This document shows, in pieces, positions 39,136 through 48,783 of a DNA stretch of 64,000 nt. The notes beneath the pieces were generated by a model. The model had not been told where the DNA came from. It did not search any database and saw nothing but the letters and a program-made list of their open reading frames with translations. Position 1 is the stretch's first letter. Each line of letters begins with the position of its first letter. The translations under genes were made by a program, and so were the position numbers. Origin of the DNA: Bacteroidota bacterium (GTDB lineage Bacteria > Bacteroidota > Bacteroidia > 2-12-FULL-35-15); assembly GCA_025963725.1 (NCBI GenBank), contig JAOQAE010000003.1, positions 62,001 through 126,000 of the forward strand, given 5' to 3'.

Positions 39136-40926
39136 ATGAAAATAAACTTTCTTTTTTTCTTCTTAGCGCTCATGTCATTTAACGCACGCTGCCAAACTAC
39201 CATCGCGGGCGGATCTGTGTCGGGCACCTGGACACTTGCAGGTTCCCCGTATCATGTTTCAGGCAGTATCATGATCCCCGACGGAACAACCCTTACAATT
39301 GACCCCGGAGTAACCGTGGTGTTTCATGGAACATACAAGCTGCTGGTGCTTGGCCGGCTTCTTGCAAACGGCACTGCTACCGACACCATCACGTTCAGGC
39401 CGGCAGCCAGCGTGAGCAACTGGCGCGGGATCCGCTTCGACAACACTCTTTCTTCAAACGACACTTCCCGGATCCGTTATGTAAAGATCAGCCAAAGCTC
39501 TGCAACGGGCGCAGCACCCGACGATAACGGCGGCGCTTTCTATTTTAATAATTTTTCCAAAGCTGTTATTTCCAATTGTCTGATTTCCGATTGTTATTCC
39601 GCAGTAAACGGAGGCTCAGTCTTTTGTTCCGGGAGCAGCCCTGTAATCACGAACAATACCATCACTCATTCCCACGCAGTTGTTTCGGGAGGCGGGATCT
39701 GCTGCTTAGCTAACAGCCACCCCTTTATTAGCCAAAACACCATTTCCAATTGCTCAGCCGGAAACGGCGGCGGTATTTTCTGCATTAGCGGCAGTAATCC
39801 GAATATCACCTACAATTCAATCGTTTCGGATACGGCATCGGACAACTACGGCGGCGGCATCCTGTGCTATAACTGCAGCCCCGTGATCGAGCACAATTTA
39901 ATTTCTTACAACATCGCAAAGGAGTATGGCGGAGGCATCCACTGCACCAACAACTCCACTGCCGTGATAAGCAACAACACAATTTCCTATAATACCAGTA
40001 TTCTCTACGGAGGCGCAGGAATCTTTTACAGCACCGATAGTCCGGGAACCGCCATTACAAATAACGTGATCTGTAACAATAAGGCTAATACCGAAGGAGG
40101 AGCCATATATGGCTCAGGAAATAATAATTCTATCTATAATAACGTGGTTGCGAACAACCGGGCACTTAGAGGCGGGGGATTTTACTTTATAGGCAGCACC
40201 TCAAAGGTCACTAATAATACGATCGTCAACAACTCCTCAGGATGGGGGGCAGGTGTCTACTGCGTGAACTCCGATCCGCTCTTCAAAAACTGTATTTTAT
40301 ACGGCAACAAGGCCGATACCAGCGGCGCGCAGGTTTATCTGTATGATGAGCCGAGCGATCCGGCCTTCACTTATTGTGATATTAAAGGAAGCAGCGCGGC
40401 CTTTGATTGTAACGGCAATTTTTTCACCGGCACCTATGCGAATAACCTGGACACCACACCTCTTTTTACATTATCATCAGGCGGCAGCGGCCTGGCATTT
40501 GATGGAATAGCTGCCGACTGGTCACTGTCCGATCCCTCCGGCTGTATAAACAGCGGTGATCCGGCAGCCACATACCCGGCCACAGACATTGCAGGAAATC
40601 CCCGGGTCACAGGCGGACGGATTGATATAGGAGCTTTTGAATCTCAGGGGCCCGCAGGTATTAATGATCTTAACGCAGACCTGTTAAAGATCTATCCTAA
40701 TCCTTTTGAAACATCCGCTGTAGTTGAATTCCCCCAGGTTGTTGATGGGATAACGCTGGCCCTGTACACTGTCTCCGGCAGCAAGGTATGGCAAACAGAG
40801 CGCTTTTCCGGAAAAAGCATTACCATAGAACGGGACGCCCTTCCCGCGGGCATCTATCTTCTTCGCATCTCACAGGGAACAAGTAGTCTCACAACGCGCC
40901 GGCTGGTTATAATGCCTGTGAAATAA
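39136..40926 (+). CDS. T9SS type A cargo with a right-handed beta-helix
   Basis: A 596-residue secreted protein: signal peptide (residues 1-20, FLALMSFNARCQ), a beta-helix of some 12 turns (about 60-470) built from repeats such as VISNCLISDCYSAVNGGSVF, ISNNTISYNTSILYGGAGIF and ITNNVICNNKANTEGGAIY, and a type A sorting domain at the end (LKIYPNPFETSAVVEF to RRLVIMPVK). Polysaccharide lyases, pectinesterases and adhesins share such helices. No catalytic residues could be assigned, so binding or adhesion is as likely as an enzyme role. Confidence 0.9.
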   Translation: MKINFLFFFLALMSFNARCQTTIAGGSVSGTWTLAGSPYHVSGSIMIPDGTTLTIDPGVTVVFHGTYKLLVLGRLLANGTATDTITFRPAASVSNWRGIRFDNTLSSNDTSRIRYVKISQSSATGAAPDDNGGAFYFNNFSKAVISNCLISDCYSAVNGGSVFCSGSSPVITNNTITHSHAVVSGGGICCLANSHPFISQNTISNCSAGNGGGIFCISGSNPNITYNSIVSDTASDNYGGGILCYNCSPVIEHNLISYNIAKEYGGGIHCTNNSTAVISNNTISYNTSILYGGAGIFYSTDSPGTAITNNVICNNKANTEGGAIYGSGNNNSIYNNVVANNRALRGGGFYFIGSTSKVTNNTIVNNSSGWGAGVYCVNSDPLFKNCILYGNKADTSGAQVYLYDEPSDPAFTYCDIKGSSAAFDCNGNFFTGTYANNLDTTPLFTLSSGGSGLAFDGIAADWSLSDPSGCINSGDPAATYPATDIAGNPRVTGGRIDIGAFESQGPAGINDLNADLLKIYPNPFETSAVVEFPQVVDGITLALYTVSGSKVWQTERFSGKSITIERDALPAGIYLLRISQGTSSLTTRRLVIMPVK

Positions 40927-42867: not shown

Positions 42868-43605
42868 ATGAAGCGCATTAAAAACATCTTCTGCCTGTTT
42901 CTTCTCCTGCTGCTTGCACAGAGGGGCTTATCCACAACATGGACAAGCATCGCCGAAGGATTCTGGAACGACCCTTCCACCTGGTCGGCCAATACCGTTC
43001 CGCCTTATTCCAGCTCCGATACATTTAACATCCGGCATGCCGTGGCATTCCAGGACGATCTCTTTTTTAACAGCGGCGCATTGCTGAAGATCGACAGCGC
43101 CGGCGGCCTCTGCGGACATTATAACATTACCGCCGCAAGCGGGTCAGCTATTAAAAAATACGGGATCATTGAGATAGATGTGATGAACATTCCCGGCGGA
43201 CATGTGGATTTTTACGCGCCCGGACAGGCGATCTTCACCCAATACGGATTGATCAGCAGCGGCGGCTCACTGAATGTAAGCGGCTGCTCGCTTACCGTTG
43301 GCCCCTGGTTCGAATGCGTGCAGCCAACCTTCAGTTTCACGATCGGCATAACCGAGCACACCAACGGAAATGTGCAGGTGTTCCCCGATCCCGCTACCGA
43401 CCATTTCACATTTTCATCTGAACAGGAGCTGCGAAACGCAACACTGCAAGTAACAGACATCAGCGGAAGGACTGTTCATACATCATCCTTTTCCGGGCAG
43501 GAATATACCGTCCCTGTTGATGAATGGAAAAATGGGATCTATTACTGGACAGTTACAGGAAAAGATCAGCTGCCGCTGCAGGGAAAAATAATGATCATAA
43601 AATAA
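42868..43605 (+). CDS. T9SS type A cargo, short, G8-like
   Basis: A 245-residue secreted protein with signal peptide (1-22). The WTSIAEGFWNDPSTWSANTVPP start is the usual first strand of G8/beta-helix-like Bacteroidota surface proteins. A type A sorting domain follows (VQVFPDPATDHFTFSS, with Asp in place of the usual Asn, to LQGKIMIIK). At about 150 residues the passenger part is unusually small. Ligand and function unknown. Confidence 0.8.
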   Translation: MKRIKNIFCLFLLLLLAQRGLSTTWTSIAEGFWNDPSTWSANTVPPYSSSDTFNIRHAVAFQDDLFFNSGALLKIDSAGGLCGHYNITAASGSAIKKYGIIEIDVMNIPGGHVDFYAPGQAIFTQYGLISSGGSLNVSGCSLTVGPWFECVQPTFSFTIGITEHTNGNVQVFPDPATDHFTFSSEQELRNATLQVTDISGRTVHTSSFSGQEYTVPVDEWKNGIYYWTVTGKDQLPLQGKIMIIK

Positions 43606-43629: not shown

Positions 43630-44136
43630 ATGAATTTCAGCCTCCGCCCCTGGACGATCAGCGACCTCGACAGCCTTGTGAAGCATGCCAACAATCCGAA
43701 CATTGCAAGGAACCTTACCGATAAGTTTCCTTATCCTTATACCGCTGAAAACGGAAAGGCATTTATTTCCTTTGCAATGCAGGGCGACCCGGTGAATATT
43801 ATGGCGATCGACATTAACGGTGAAGCCGTGGGCGGCATCGGCATTCACCCGCAGTCCGACATCCAGCGAAAGAATGCCGAGCTTGGGTACTGGCTGGCGG
43901 AGCCATTCTGGGGCAAAGGGATCATCACCCGCGCCATCCGGCAAATGACCGATTATGGATTTGCCAATTTCGACATTACACGCATTTATGCACGCCCCTT
44001 CGAAACAAACACCGCCTCAAAAAAGGCGCTTGAAAAAAACAGCTTCGTGATTGAAGGCCGGTTCGAAAAAACACTTTACAAGAACGGTGAATTCCTTGAC
44101 GAATTAATTTATGCCATAAGGCGGAAACTGCCTTAA
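43630..44136 (+). CDS. GNAT family N-acetyltransferase (RimJ/RimL type)
   Basis: A 168-residue acetyltransferase. The acetyl-CoA-binding motif is in GYWLAEPFWGKGIITRAIRQ, followed by YARPFETNTASKKALEKNSF, the usual motif B region. The N-terminus (MNFSLRPWTISDLDSLVKHA) is typical of the group that acetylates ribosomal proteins, aminoglycosides or amino acids. The substrate cannot be judged from sequence. It converges with the next gene, and the two coding ends overlap by 4 bases. Confidence 0.88.
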   Translation: MNFSLRPWTISDLDSLVKHANNPNIARNLTDKFPYPYTAENGKAFISFAMQGDPVNIMAIDINGEAVGGIGIHPQSDIQRKNAELGYWLAEPFWGKGIITRAIRQMTDYGFANFDITRIYARPFETNTASKKALEKNSFVIEGRFEKTLYKNGEFLDELIYAIRRKLP

Positions 44137-44771
44137 TTCTTCCGGCTCTCCCAGGTATCCATTTTGATCTTGATGATCAGCAAATGGTTCTTAAATTCAT
44201 GGATCATCTTCGCCATTTCCTCTTCACGCTCCATTAATTCCGTATAATCAAGGTCCGATGCTTCGATCACCGGCTTCAGCTTTGCAATGTTGGCCTGCAT
44301 CTGTGCGATCGTCTCCACCGCCTGCTGCCGGTCCTGCTCTCCCAGCTCATTCTTCTCCAGCTTCTGCTGAAGATCACCTACAAAGCCTTCCACGTATGGG
44401 ATCATGTCCCAGGGATTGTTGGGCCGCGCCCAAACGAATTCAATATTACACTTGCGGCATTTGTATTTATTGCATTTCCATCCCTGCGCATGCTTATCGA
44501 TCCCGACGAATTTCAGGTGTGTTGTTTTGTTGCACTTAGGGCATACCGCGTTGTCCTTCACAAGCCCTTTCAGCTGCTCGCGCTGGAGCAACACTTCCTC
44601 TCTCCGCGACGCATGCAGGTTCAGCTGCTCCGCGAACTTTTCGCAGGTATCGATCAGCTGCTGGAACTCGGCATCCACCTTATTCTCCCCTACCAGCTTT
44701 TCGGCATGCTTCCTGAAAAAATTAACCAGCTTGATCAGCTCCCGTTCATTCTCCTTGAGGTTATGGCTCAT
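44133..44771 (-). CDS. Coiled-coil protein with a zinc ribbon, unknown function
   Basis: A 212-residue soluble protein: a helical coiled coil (1-75), a zinc ribbon with cysteines at 77, 80, 100, 105 and 108 (VCPKC ... WKCNKYKCRKC), and a second long coiled coil (about 130-210, rich in Lys, Glu and Gln). The ribbon sits like a rubredoxin-type knuckle between two helices. The ribbon resembles those of transposase and RNA-polymerase-associated proteins, but no homologue is recognised with confidence. The transcript is presumably monocistronic. Confidence 0.7.
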   Translation of the reverse strand: MSHNLKENERELIKLVNFFRKHAEKLVGENKVDAEFQQLIDTCEKFAEQLNLHASRREEVLLQREQLKGLVKDNAVCPKCNKTTHLKFVGIDKHAQGWKCNKYKCRKCNIEFVWARPNNPWDMIPYVEGFVGDLQQKLEKNELGEQDRQQAVETIAQMQANIAKLKPVIEASDLDYTELMEREEEMAKMIHEFKNHLLIIKIKMDTWESRKN

Positions 44772-44844
44772 TTGTATCGAATTGTTTTTTCAAAGATAAG
44801 GATTGAGGGCAATATTTAAAATCCCGGCTTCCATTATTTTAAGC

Positions 44845-44874
44845 TTGCTTTCTACCTGTTTTTCACTATATTTG
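44845..44874 (+). promoter_or_regulatory. Promoter of the heme-c/copper oxygenase-like T9SS gene
   Basis: TTG (44845-44847), a 19-base spacer and TATATTTG (44867-44874) form a full match to the Bacteroidota promoter. The start codon lies 18 bases further. Confidence 0.65.
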
Positions 44875-44892
44875 ATCAACAATAAACATCCC

Positions 44893-46476
44893 ATGAAAAA
44901 ACTCTTACTTGCATTCGCATTATTCATTTGCCTCGCTCCCCTCGCAGCGCAAACAACCTACAGCAATGTAGCGCCGATATTCTTTAACAGGTGCACCAGC
45001 TGCCACCATGAGAACAGCCATGCGCCGTCTTTCATGACCTACAGCCAGATCGTTCCGCACATGTACACGATCGATGCATACCTGAACTCCGGCTATATGC
45101 CGCCATGGATCCCCGATACAACCTATTCACGCTTTTCGCATGAGCGTACCATCGCCCCTGCGGAAAAAGCGGCTATCCTCAACTGGATCGCCAACGGCGC
45201 ACCTGCAGGCGATACCACACTCGCGCCGCCGGCACCCGTGTATTCACGCTACCAGCTGAACGGCACTCCCGACCTGGAGCTTACCATCCCGACCTTTACA
45301 AGCAACGCCGTTACCGACGACAGCTATGTTTGCTTTTCCTTACCGACCGGCCTTACACAGAACCGTATCATCCAGGCCTACGAAGTGGTAGGCGGGAATG
45401 AATCGATCGTTCACCACGTTGTTGTAAACGTGGATACCATGGGCACTACCACCAGCGACCTTTCCGGCGGATGCTACACCATCAGCGGCGATTTCAGCAT
45501 TGGCGGATATGCTCCAGGGGCATCTCCAACCGTATTCCCAAGCACAGGCCCTCTTAAAATGGGCATCACCATCAAGGCCGGATCAAAGATCGTGTTGCAG
45601 ATCCACTACCCTGTAGGAACCGACGGGCAGCAGGACAGCACAAAGATCAGGATCTTCTTCTATCCTGTTGGAACCACCGGCGTACGCCCTGTTTATGTAA
45701 CCACACCATTACAGAACTGGTCGCTGAACATCCCGGCAAACACCGTGAGGACATTCAATGCAGTTTATCCTACTTCGGGCGGAATGCCTTACCCCACTTC
45801 TATTTTTGCGGCTTTCCCGCATTCACATAAGATCGCAAGGGTGCTGAAAAATTATGCTTACCTCGGAACAGATACGGTTCCGCTGATCAGGATCAATGAA
45901 TGGGATTTCAACTGGCAGGGATATTACACCTTCCGCAACCTGAAGAAAGTGCCAACAGGCTACAAGTTCAAGGCAACGCATATTTACGACAACACTACGG
46001 CCAATCCTTTTAACCCAACGCCAGTAAGCGTGTATGCAGGCACCAGCACCTCCGATGAAATGCTCTTCGATTCTTTTATGTCGCTCTATTACCTGCCGGG
46101 TGATGAAACTGTAAATATCGATTCCCTGCTGGCGCTCGATCCGCTTTTGCAGCCGGGAACTATCGGCATTACGGAACAGGTGATGCCGGGTATTGAAATG
46201 AATACCTACGCATTCCCGAATCCTTTCGATAACAGGGTAACCATCGGCTATACGCTGGATGCGCCTTCAAAAGTGAGCATTGATGTGTACACCATTTACG
46301 GAACACGTGTAAGCACACTGCAGAACGGCATGGAGGACAAAGGCACGCATGAGATGACATGGGACGGAACGAACGATGCAGGCGCCAAACTGGCTGCAGG
46401 CTCGTACATCTACATCGTAAGGACCGGCACACAGCAGTGCTACGGAAAGCTGACCCTGCTGGGCTTAAAAAATTAA
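44893..46476 (+). CDS. T9SS cargo with heme-c motif and copper-monooxygenase-like domains
   Basis: The ATG at 44893 gives 527 residues and a signal peptide (MKKLLLAFALFICLAPLAAQ). A heme-c motif follows at C34-T-S-C37-H38. The middle resembles the two beta-sandwich domains of ascorbate-dependent type II copper monooxygenases (PHM/DBH fold), and copper ligands can be matched: H174-H175 and H238 (first site), H310-x-H312 and M390 (second site). The end is a FlgD-like/type A sorting domain (TYAFPNPFDNRVTIGY to GKLTLLGLKN). It looks like a secreted redox enzyme with electron input through the heme. The substrate is unknown. A terminator follows. Confidence 0.8.
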   Translation: MKKLLLAFALFICLAPLAAQTTYSNVAPIFFNRCTSCHHENSHAPSFMTYSQIVPHMYTIDAYLNSGYMPPWIPDTTYSRFSHERTIAPAEKAAILNWIANGAPAGDTTLAPPAPVYSRYQLNGTPDLELTIPTFTSNAVTDDSYVCFSLPTGLTQNRIIQAYEVVGGNESIVHHVVVNVDTMGTTTSDLSGGCYTISGDFSIGGYAPGASPTVFPSTGPLKMGITIKAGSKIVLQIHYPVGTDGQQDSTKIRIFFYPVGTTGVRPVYVTTPLQNWSLNIPANTVRTFNAVYPTSGGMPYPTSIFAAFPHSHKIARVLKNYAYLGTDTVPLIRINEWDFNWQGYYTFRNLKKVPTGYKFKATHIYDNTTANPFNPTPVSVYAGTSTSDEMLFDSFMSLYYLPGDETVNIDSLLALDPLLQPGTIGITEQVMPGIEMNTYAFPNPFDNRVTIGYTLDAPSKVSIDVYTIYGTRVSTLQNGMEDKGTHEMTWDGTNDAGAKLAAGSYIYIVRTGTQQCYGKLTLLGLKN

Positions 46477-46489
46477 GAACTGTTTTTAT

Positions 46490-46523
46490 AAAAAAAGTCC
46501 TTCCCCACGGAGGGACTTTTTTT
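46490..46523 (+). terminator. Terminator of the heme-c/copper oxygenase-like gene
   Basis: AAAAAAAGTCC pairs with GGGACTTTTTTT around a TTCCCCACGGA loop, ending in a long T run. Confidence 0.85.
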
Positions 46524-46576
46524 ATGCCCGGCACAGATTTTAAAGCCGGTCTGTTATACTTTCAGTATTCAACCTT

Positions 46577-47425
46577 ATGAAAACATTCGCTTATTTATTA
46601 TCATTTGCTGCAGTGGGTATGCTAACGCTGCAAAGCTGCGGCATCTCAAAGCACAGGAACATCACGTATCTCCCGGCTGATCCGAAGTTGAAAACGGAGG
46701 AAATGAAGCTGGACGTATTCAGCCCGAAGCATGCCGATAAAAAAGATGTATTCATTTTTATCCATGGCGGCGGATGGGCGCATGGAAGCAAGTCGCTTTA
46801 CAAATTCTTCGGGAAGCGCCTTGCACGGAAAGACGTGGTAGGCGTTGTGATCGATTATCCCTTAAGCCCGAAGGCCAATTACAATGACATGGCCATTGCT
46901 TCCGCAAAAGCGGTAAAATGGGTGAAGGAGAACATTGCAAGCTATGGCGGCAATCCCGACAGGATCTTTATTTCAGGGCATTCGGCAGGCGGGCACCTTG
47001 CTGCGCTGATCACCGTACGAAAAAAATATTTCGACAGCCTCGGACTCGAAGACCCGGTGAAAGGCGTGGTGCTGATAGACGCTGCAGGGCTCGACATGAA
47101 AAAATATCTGGAGGACCAGGAAGCTGCCGGCGGTGATCATTACCTCGATGCATTTACAAAAGATCATGAAACCTGGAAGGAAGCTTCACCCATCTACTTT
47201 CTTCGCGAAGGCATTCCGCCCATGCTGATCCTTACCGGTGAAAAAACCTACCCGAACATTAAGGACAGCAACGAGCGTTTTGTAACCGGCCTTGCCAAAT
47301 ATGCGAAAACACTCGACTATAAAGTGGTGAAAGGAAAGCATCACATCCCGATGATCTTCCAGTTCTATAATGCGCATAATGGCCTGTATGACTATATTCT
47401 GAAATTTATGAAGAATACGAAATGA
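46577..47425 (+). CDS. Alpha/beta hydrolase lipoprotein (BD-FAE type)
   Basis: A 282-residue protein with lipobox LTLQSCG (cysteine at about residue 16). It carries the oxyanion-hole motif FIHGGGWAHG, the nucleophile elbow ISGHSAGGHLAAL, an aspartate in LILTGEKTYPN-region and a late KGKHHIPM histidine. This is the bifunctional feruloyl/acetyl esterase-like family, common in Bacteroidota. A plant-polysaccharide or lipid ester could be the substrate. It has its own small promoter region and lies between a T9SS cargo gene and a TPR gene. Confidence 0.85.
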   Translation: MKTFAYLLSFAAVGMLTLQSCGISKHRNITYLPADPKLKTEEMKLDVFSPKHADKKDVFIFIHGGGWAHGSKSLYKFFGKRLARKDVVGVVIDYPLSPKANYNDMAIASAKAVKWVKENIASYGGNPDRIFISGHSAGGHLAALITVRKKYFDSLGLEDPVKGVVLIDAAGLDMKKYLEDQEAAGGDHYLDAFTKDHETWKEASPIYFLREGIPPMLILTGEKTYPNIKDSNERFVTGLAKYAKTLDYKVVKGKHHIPMIFQFYNAHNGLYDYILKFMKNTK

Positions 47426-47478
47426 TGTACTCGCATCCGGCTAAATCACTATATTAGTTTCTGCAAAACAAAACAGCA

Positions 47479-48783
47479 TTGAAACACTTTCTCAGCCTTC
47501 TCATCGTATGGTGCTTTTTCATCCCATGCCTCGCGCAGCAGGAACCGACCGACTCGCTTCTCAATCTTTTAAAAGTTGCTAAAGAGGATACCAACAAAGT
47601 AATTCTCTTAAACCATCTCGGTGAATACTGTGATGAAAGCGACATTTTAAAATACGCTGAAGCCTCCTTGCAGCTTTCCGAAAAGCTGAACTATAAGCAG
47701 GGAATTGCGGATGCGACCGGGAACATCGGCTTTGTGTATAATAACGAAGGCCGCATTGAAATGGCGCTTGAATGCTTTATGAAGGCATTGAAATTAGAGG
47801 AAGAGCTTGGCAAAAAGAAGGAAGCTGCCTTTTTACTGAATAACATCGCATTTATCCAAAAGAACCAGGGACAGCCGGACATGGCGCTGGTCAATTACCT
47901 CAAAGCTCTTAAAATACTTGAAGAAGAAAAGGACCAAAGAATGCTTCCTTATATACTCGATAACATCGGGGAAATTTATTTTTTGCAGGAGCACATTGAC
48001 AAGGCACTTGAATTTCACCAGCGCGCATTAAAGCTCCGTGAGGAAACAGGCGACAAAAGAGGCATTTCAGCATCCTACAGCTATTTCGGCGTGATCTATA
48101 GAAACAAAGGAGAGCCTGAAAAAGCACTGGGCTATTTTCAAAAGGCCCTGGCGCTGCGCGAAGAAGCAGGCGAGAAGGAAGGGATCACCAACTCACTGAA
48201 TGCCGTTGGCGCCATGTACGCTGCACTGAAAGAATATAAGCAGGCCGAAAAATACTGTGTCCGTGCGCTGGAAGTGGCAAGGGAAATCGGATATCCCGGC
48301 TACATCCTCAATGCAAGCGAGAACCTCAGCATGATCTACAAGTCGGAGAACGATTATAAGAATGCATACGAAATGCATGTGCTGTACAAGGAAATGACCG
48401 ACAGCATTAACAACCAGGAAACAAGAAAAGCTTCGGTTCAAAAACAGATGAAGTATGATTTCGAGAAAAAGGAAATGCTTGCCAAAGCCGAACAGGATAA
48501 GAAAGACACCATTGCACGGGAAGAAAAACAGCAGCAGCAGCTGATCATTTATGCCGTGAGCGCCGGACTCCTTCTCGTCCTGCTCTTCGCGTTGTTCATT
48601 CTCAGGAGCTACCGGCAAAAGCAAAAGGCCAACATGGAGATCCTGCAACAGAAAGCGATCATCGAAGAAAAGCAAAAGGACATTCTCGACAGCATCCACT
48701 ACGCGAAGCGCATTCAGCAATCACTGTTGCCAACGGAAAAATACATTGATAAGAACATGCGTAAATTAAAGCGGGAAGCTTGA
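47479..48783 (+). CDS. TPR membrane protein with an orphan SpoIIE-type linker
   Basis: A 434-residue protein starting at TTG (47479): signal peptide (1-20), six or seven TPR repeats (about 25-320; e.g. ALEFHQRALKLREETGDKRG, ALGYFQKALALREEAGEKEG), a membrane helix (about 355-378), and a coiled coil. The end, QKDILDSIHYAKRIQQSLLP, is the linker that precedes a SpoIIE phosphatase domain in related proteins (KDSINYAKKIQDAILP in the gene at 22320), yet the phosphatase is missing. It ends cleanly 17 bases before a terminator, so truncation is old or this short form is functional. Confidence 0.85.
   Translation: MKHFLSLLIVWCFFIPCLAQQEPTDSLLNLLKVAKEDTNKVILLNHLGEYCDESDILKYAEASLQLSEKLNYKQGIADATGNIGFVYNNEGRIEMALECFMKALKLEEELGKKKEAAFLLNNIAFIQKNQGQPDMALVNYLKALKILEEEKDQRMLPYILDNIGEIYFLQEHIDKALEFHQRALKLREETGDKRGISASYSYFGVIYRNKGEPEKALGYFQKALALREEAGEKEGITNSLNAVGAMYAALKEYKQAEKYCVRALEVAREIGYPGYILNASENLSMIYKSENDYKNAYEMHVLYKEMTDSINNQETRKASVQKQMKYDFEKKEMLAKAEQDKKDTIAREEKQQQQLIIYAVSAGLLLVLLFALFILRSYRQKQKANMEILQQKAIIEEKQKDILDSIHYAKRIQQSLLPTEKYIDKNMRKLKREA

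Follow-up and report, generated by a model that had tools for sequence, protein, structure and literature searches.

A heme c, PHM-like and T9SS-tailed protein and its relatives in Bacteroidota

Introduction

The animal enzymes PHM and DBH, both well known, draw their electrons from ascorbate. PHM carries five disulfides, and its R240, the Arg that stands before the HTH motif, binds the substrate carboxylate. In LPMOs, one copper is held in a histidine brace within a different fold, and the electron donor is usually a separate protein. Parts of PMC12055684 describe LPMOs served by cellobiose dehydrogenase or by bacterial cytochrome c redox proteins, a likeness to the arrangement considered here in that a heme protein feeds a secreted copper oxygenase. 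For DBH, passages of PMC4846438 state that two ascorbates supply the electrons, that CuH is the proposed electron-transfer site and that CuM binds O2. According to a passage of PMC8812541, PHM is widespread in eukaryotes, and PNGase F in bacteria.

We analysed a stretch of 64,000 nucleotides of Bacteroidota DNA (the window) in which one gene encodes a protein joining a heme c site, a PHM-like core and a T9SS-type tail; PHM-type proteins evidently occur in Bacteroidota too. No study of heme c-PHM proteins was found by title or abstract in the open-licence PMC literature, nor was an open-licence paper that combines T9SS, cytochrome c, a sorting domain and a monooxygenase. What is new here is that heme-copper fusions recur in Bacteroidota, in three clades, with recurrent redoxin or BD-FAE neighbours. 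A branch of the family in bacteria that brings its own heme would allow a direct test of electron entry at CuH and of the crossing to CuM, and surface hydroxylases could be drawn from it.

Results

Layout of the window protein

The gene lies at 44893-46476 (+) and encodes a protein of 527 aa. Its reading frame runs uninterrupted from ATG 44893 to the stop codon at 46474-46476. A longer form starting from TTG at 44803 is possible; the relatives start near the same Met as ATG 44893. The features of the protein are as follows.

44893..44952 (+), signal peptide, residues 1-20; cleavage point placed by eye, Q20 nearly invariant in alignment A1
44992..45006 (+), heme c attachment site C34-T-S-C37-H38, from sequence and conservation
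45097..45108 (+), MPPW motif, residues 69-72, with M69 as proposed sixth heme ligand (116/116 for conservation; the role is putative)
45256..46107 (+), PHM/DBH-like catalytic core, residues 122-405, from fold match and core profile
45412..45417 (+), H174-H175, proposed CuH ligands, aligned with DBH His262/His263
45604..45606 (+), H238 (QIHY), proposed CuH ligand, aligned with DBH His333
45820..45828 (+), H310-S-H312 (PHSH), proposed CuM ligands, aligned with DBH His412/His414
46060..46062 (+), M390 (DEM), proposed CuM ligand, 111/116, at most 2 residues from Met314/Met487, judging from where the structural alignments end
46186..46473 (+), T9SS type A-like or FlgD_ig-like C-terminal domain, residues 432-527, from Pfam, NCBIfam and fold match

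The earlier note had described one exported protein with a CxxCH motif, a full HH/H/HxH/M set and a type A-like tail, and all of these are present as predicted from sequence and fold. This combination of a heme c site, a PHM-type core and a T9SS-type tail is well supported as real. A chance set of motifs was considered and is ruled out by the fold and the conservation.

The tail resembles those of T9SS type A cargo proteins. It narrowly passed the NCBIfam model TIGR04183 (T9SS type A; score 23.7 against a cut-off of 23), stayed below the cut-off of PF18962 (21.8 against 27) and gave a strong Pfam match to FlgD_ig (E 3.4e-12). Residues 432-525 of the predicted model superpose on the C-terminal domain of PorU with Z 12.4 and an rmsd of 2.2 over 93 residues, and a T9SS tail was found in 63/67 family members at E <= 0.01. 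SprA is encoded in the genome (E 0) and had no match in 14 control genomes; the genome also holds two CcsA-like loci of the Cytochrom_C_asm family, which occurs in 9/14 control genomes as well. Export of a heme-bearing protein is therefore possible.

The single CxxCH of the protein follows the signal peptide and, with the conserved Met downstream, has the form of a c-type cytochrome site. Together with the motif, the conservation of M69 favours a c-heme of the His/Met type, with H38 and M69 as its putative axial ligands. Among the 67 members, PF13442 (Cytochrome_CBB3) matches 21, Haem_bd 16 and PF00034 (Cytochrom_C) 3 at E <= 0.01. Modelled alone, the heme domain reached a pLDDT of 80.8; its best structural matches were cytochromes at chance level (cytochrome c-554, E 1.2; YhjA, Z 4.5).

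The copper core has the PHM/DBH fold

An AlphaFold2 model of the 527-aa protein, built from 67 aligned sequences, had a mean pLDDT of 90.1 and a pTM of 0.74. With this model as the Foldseek query against the PDB, PHM and DBH chains took ranks 1-30 (best E 1e-13). In VIA-align, residues 122-401 superpose on residues 54-327 of rat PHM (5wja_D) with Z 22.3 and an rmsd of 2.8 Å over 256 residues at 18% identity, and the model superposes on human DBH (4zel) with Z 21.8 and an rmsd of 2.8 over 267 residues. The top 26 VIA-align entries were all PHM or DBH (Z 18.1-22.3), and lower entries mainly cover the tail. Superposition of a predicted structure on PHM, which the earlier note had proposed as a check, thus returned the PHM/DBH fold at Z 18-22. 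The same note held that its claim would fall with a predicted fold in which the His and Met residues do not meet at two copper sites. Since the fold matches PHM/DBH and the ligands align with theirs, that outcome did not arise in the model, at the level of the fold.

Sequence profiles point the same way. Pfam matches of the window protein to the two copper domains are weak but correctly ordered: PF01082 at 132-239 (E 0.0018, score 18.9 against a gathering score of 30) and PF03712 at 303-392 (E 1.6e-4, score 21.7 against 23), the latter spanning the position of M390. In the genome search, PF03712 scored 24.2, above its gathering score, and PF01082 gave no match. Among the relatives, PF01082 matches 44/67 and PF03712 62/67 at E <= 0.01. 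The single window sequence found DBH in the PDB at E 0.026 only; a profile of 67 full-length rows reached DBH at 2.8e-11, with PHM absent at E <= 0.01, and a profile of 55 core regions found both DBH (4.8e-13) and PHM (1.8e-7). The core profile alignment (A4) consists of these 55 rows and excludes L074 and eleven other members of the family alignment A2.

In the core profile alignment, HH, H and HxH align with DBH chain positions 223, 224, 294, 373 and 375, which a constant shift of 39 converts to 262, 263, 333, 412 and 414. These are the copper histidines of DBH as given in passages of PMC4846438. The His triad H174, H175 and H238 accordingly matches His262, His263 and His333 of the CuH site. 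The printed DBH profile alignment stops before M390. The structural alignment ends 402/326 (1phm) and 401/498 (4zel) place M390 exactly on the copper Met, and the end 401/327 (5wja_D) places it two residues away.

Like DBH (4zel), the window protein has the copper core fold, five aligned His and a further domain N-terminal to the core. Unlike DBH, for which parts of PMC4846438 describe a heme-less DOMON domain and a dimerization domain, it has a c-heme domain and a T9SS tail. With rat PHM it shares the core fold and the aligned His ligands, whereas PHM is without heme, and the window protein is without the Arg before HTH and has no lyase partner in view. Its core also differs from that of PHM in having only C147 and C194 as possible disulfide partners; they are conserved in 108/116 and 80/116 ORFs taken without a motif filter and may form a disulfide resembling one in PHM.

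Ligands of both cofactors are conserved among relatives

The earlier sets of relatives were picked by motif, namely 34 ORFs with CxxCH and HH and then A2, which comprises the window protein and 66 of 75 ORFs with CxxCH, HH and MPPW (L069, L072, L077, L079, L082, L085, L092, L106 and L109 were left out by choice); conservation within these two sets is therefore biased. Members of A2 are 32-74% identical to the window protein. We therefore relied on 116 ORFs from 112 sources, the window included, that the A2 profile retrieved at E <= 1e-15 without a motif filter. Some loci represent the same contig twice (L010, L041 and L122 are apparently one contig) and the searches overlap, so that the 116 rows are partly non-independent.

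The heme ligands are kept in nearly all of these ORFs (C34 in 114, C37 in 116, H38 in 115 and M69 in 116), and so are the copper ligands (H174 in 116, H175 in 115, H238 in 116, H310 and H312 in 112 each, M390 in 111). Frame ends explain misses: three ORFs stop short of H310/H312 and five short of M390. L064 begins at a contig end within the heme site, and the heme site of L088 aligns oddly. A genuine loss of three copper ligands was found in L074, where D, F and R replace H175, H310 and H312. The L074 gene (291-1910, +) lies on a long branch of the tree and retains the heme site, H174, H238, the Met and the T9SS tail, a natural case of copper-site loss. The heme part has therefore persisted without the copper sites in one lineage.

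Distribution in Bacteroidota and clades of the family

The earlier note had called such a redox module unusual, a description that does not hold within Bacteroidota. The source genome (4.79 Mb, 7 contigs) carries three heme-PHM genes, and 47/59 genomes among relatives, the own genome included, match at E <= 1e-15. In a wider sample of 296 Bacteroidota genomes, the family profile matched at least 21 at E <= 1e-20, again with the own genome included; this figure is a lower bound, because five candidates were scored per genome. PF03712 matched 19/296 genomes at E <= 1e-5 and none of the 14 control genomes. The family does not look rare; it looks unstudied, although a match came from only about 7% of the 296 genomes.

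The PF03712 search was keyed on the copper domain alone, not on heme, and yielded 22 proteins, two of them from the source genome. All 22 carry a heme c motif N-terminal to the PHM domain, 16 as CX2CH and 6 as CX4CH, so the heme fusion looks like the rule in this Bacteroidota sample. With CX2CH alone, four ORFs had seemed heme-less; CX4CH is present in these and in two ORFs that were at first unlocated. No other result speaks as strongly for joint action of heme and coppers as this pairing, obtained from a search for the copper domain.

There is precedent for CX4CH as a form of heme attachment. PHM-like proteins in which CX4CH occurs with an MPLG-type motif replacing MPPW were seen in L176, L180, L181, L185, L190 and L191, and by their motifs they appear to be a second heme form of the heme-PHM fusion.

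A contig search with two peptide patterns, one containing MPPW, confirmed 580 loci; the 80 that were listed all have Bacteroidota names, Fluviicola and Crocinitomix among them. A plasmid search returned matches to the T9SS tail only, in 4 records. A midpoint-rooted tree, built by FastTree from 119 unique sequences, resolved three clades of heme-PHM proteins, two tailed (A and B) and one tail-less (C). Clade A, with the window gene, has 94 sequences, 91 of them with a tail (support 0.966). Clade C has 21 sequences, 12 with a lipobox-like pattern (support 0.997). Clade B is small and tailed, with 4 sequences, and joins clade C with support 0.998.

Neighbouring genes

Two features follow the window gene on the same strand.

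46498..46522 (+), terminator-like hairpin with T run, 3' of the heme-PHM gene; pattern match only
46577..47425 (+), alpha/beta hydrolase of the BD-FAE family, lipoprotein-like by eye, next gene (PF20434, E 4.6e-27)

Terminator-like patterns in 44000-47600 numbered 7, compared with 3.6 +/- 2.2 in shuffled sequence, and the terminator-like site suggests that the window gene could form a transcript by itself. The BD-FAE gene, which ranks first among the 4 in the genome, starts 100 bp downstream, and the two genes stay adjacent in close relatives. Their co-transcription in the window was considered and is unsupported given the terminator-like site. A BD-FAE gene adjoins the PHM gene also in L041, L121, L122 (apparently the contig of L041) and L123, but not in L124. 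It is possible that the downstream hydrolase is a functional partner of the heme-PHM protein.

In 10 of the 80 loci listed, a BD-FAE-type esterase with a T9SS-like tail precedes the PHM gene, identified by Pfam for the L081 copy and by clustering and eye for the others; one gene intervenes in L059 and L082. A GDSL hydrolase (9/10) and a FadL-type transporter (8/10) stand in line with them, and the PHM proteins encoded there share 50-90% identity. An operon-like run of FadL, GDSL hydrolase, T9SS-tailed BD-FAE esterase and heme-PHM was seen in L059, L070, L071, L076, L081, L091, L107 and L109, and part of it in L068 and L082. A profile of both esterase groups found a strong member (E < 1e-15) in the flanks of 13 of the 80 loci listed; it was built from the same neighbours that it then found, and the loci represent few lineages. 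The BD-FAE family is common, occurring in 13/14 control genomes. Because of the few lineages, the self-trained profile and the common family, we treat the link between esterase and heme-PHM genes as a lead only.

A redoxin gene lies within 0.81 kb of the PHM gene in 4/4 clade B loci and 5/21 clade C loci; none accompanies the PHM gene in the 13 clade C loci that come from the genus of the window. Within clade A a redoxin was seen only in L103 (5.4 kb away) and L067 (1.8 kb, weaker), and a redoxin ORF occurs also in locus L193, which belongs to another family. The redoxin carries CPxC, replaced by CLxC in one copy and CPxS in another, as well as a C-terminal GC motif; it might act as a maturation factor for copper or thiols. 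A redoxin beside heme-PHM paralogues was seen at L136 7000-7521, L138, L139 and L140, and at L166-L168, L171 and L172. In clade B the redoxin sits by SufS, SufE-like and DUF59-like genes (assigned by eye) and DUF2480 (Pfam). All neighbouring ORFs were taken from a simple longest-ORF script. The search for conserved neighbours suggested by the earlier note was thus borne out in part: redoxin recurs in clades B and C and BD-FAE esterases in the window's clade, and the neighbours vary between lineages.

Proposed function and alternatives

With a probability of about 0.55, we read the protein as a cell-surface two-copper hydroxylating monooxygenase of the PHM/DBH type whose own covalent heme is the point of electron entry. 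It would be exported by Sec, receive its heme at C34/C37 in the periplasm from a cytochrome c assembly system, for which CcsA-like genes are present, and be loaded with copper at H174/H175/H238 (CuH) and H310/H312/M390 (CuM). Passage through the T9SS, of which SprA is present, would lead to anchoring or release via the C-terminal domain; if this reading of export is true, the T9SS moves a protein with three metal sites. A surface donor would then reduce the heme (H38/M69), the heme would pass electrons to CuH, and O2 bound at CuM would hydroxylate an organic substrate, as in PHM/DBH chemistry. By analogy, the built-in heme could take the role of ascorbate as electron supplier, and it is plausible that electrons pass from it to the coppers. 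The neighbouring esterases weakly suggest substrates that are esters, lipids or derived from plants. A wider version, which we advance tentatively, is that the PHM/DBH superfamily in Bacteroidota, perhaps in bacteria at large, is heme-wired: an N-terminal c-heme (CX2CH or CX4CH) would replace ascorbate as the immediate electron source, and the T9SS would bring the loaded enzyme to the surface, where it would oxidise external substrates beside surface esterases.

The heme-fed monooxygenase is supported by the PHM/DBH fold and its aligned ligands, by the ligands of both cofactor types being kept together, by the pairing in 22/22 proteins, and by the tail, SprA and the cytochrome c assembly loci. 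L074, with a heme site and without three copper ligands, is counted against it, as are the weak Pfam copper matches, the chance-level structural matches of the heme domain, the terminator-like site after the window gene and the neighbours that differ between lineages. L074, with its long branch and three lost ligands, would also suit a decayed structural homologue without metal function, a reading that we consider scarcely credible for a protein whose ligands are intact, as they are in nearly all other copies, across the 32-74% identity of A2. The copper core might instead be a monooxygenase whose heme c is not a donor and serves partner docking, O2 or redox sensing, or folding, with small extracellular reductants feeding CuH. 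DBH itself uses ascorbate, and the DOMON domain that precedes the same core has no heme pocket or ligands according to passages of PMC4846438; against this stand the joint occurrence of heme motif and PHM core in 22/22 proteins, in two motif forms, and the retention of the proposed axial Met in 116/116. We regard a non-donor heme as rather doubtful.

Less probable still is a surface protein for redox or copper handling, that is, an electron conduit or copper store with a heme and two copper sites, and not an oxygenase. Surface cytochromes in other bacteria serve extracellular electron transfer, and the redoxins found beside the paralogues would suit the handling of metals or thiols; a single heme would make an unusual conduit, and conservation extends to every HH/H/HxH/M ligand of a CuH/CuM pair, the Met at the O2 site among them. 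A bacterial peptidylglycine alpha-hydroxylase making amidated peptides would share its fold and ligands with PHM, but Phe308 replaces the Arg that stands two residues ahead of the HTH of PHM in the core profile alignment, and Pfam found no amidating-lyase domain in the protein or in six window neighbours. With the Arg not kept and the lyase not seen, we rejected peptide amidation, which on this sequence evidence is very unlikely.

Other genes nearby

Two further genes with T9SS tails lie close to the heme-PHM gene in the window, one for a right-handed beta-helix protein at 39136-40926 (+) and one for a 245-aa protein at 42868-43605 (+). On the other side, at 47479-48783 (+), is a gene for a TPR protein with a membrane segment, which ends soon after the stretch DSIHYAKRIQQSLLP. 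Pfam gave TPRs and one weak unrelated match for this protein, which by its appearance may be a shortened relative of TPR-phosphatase sensors.
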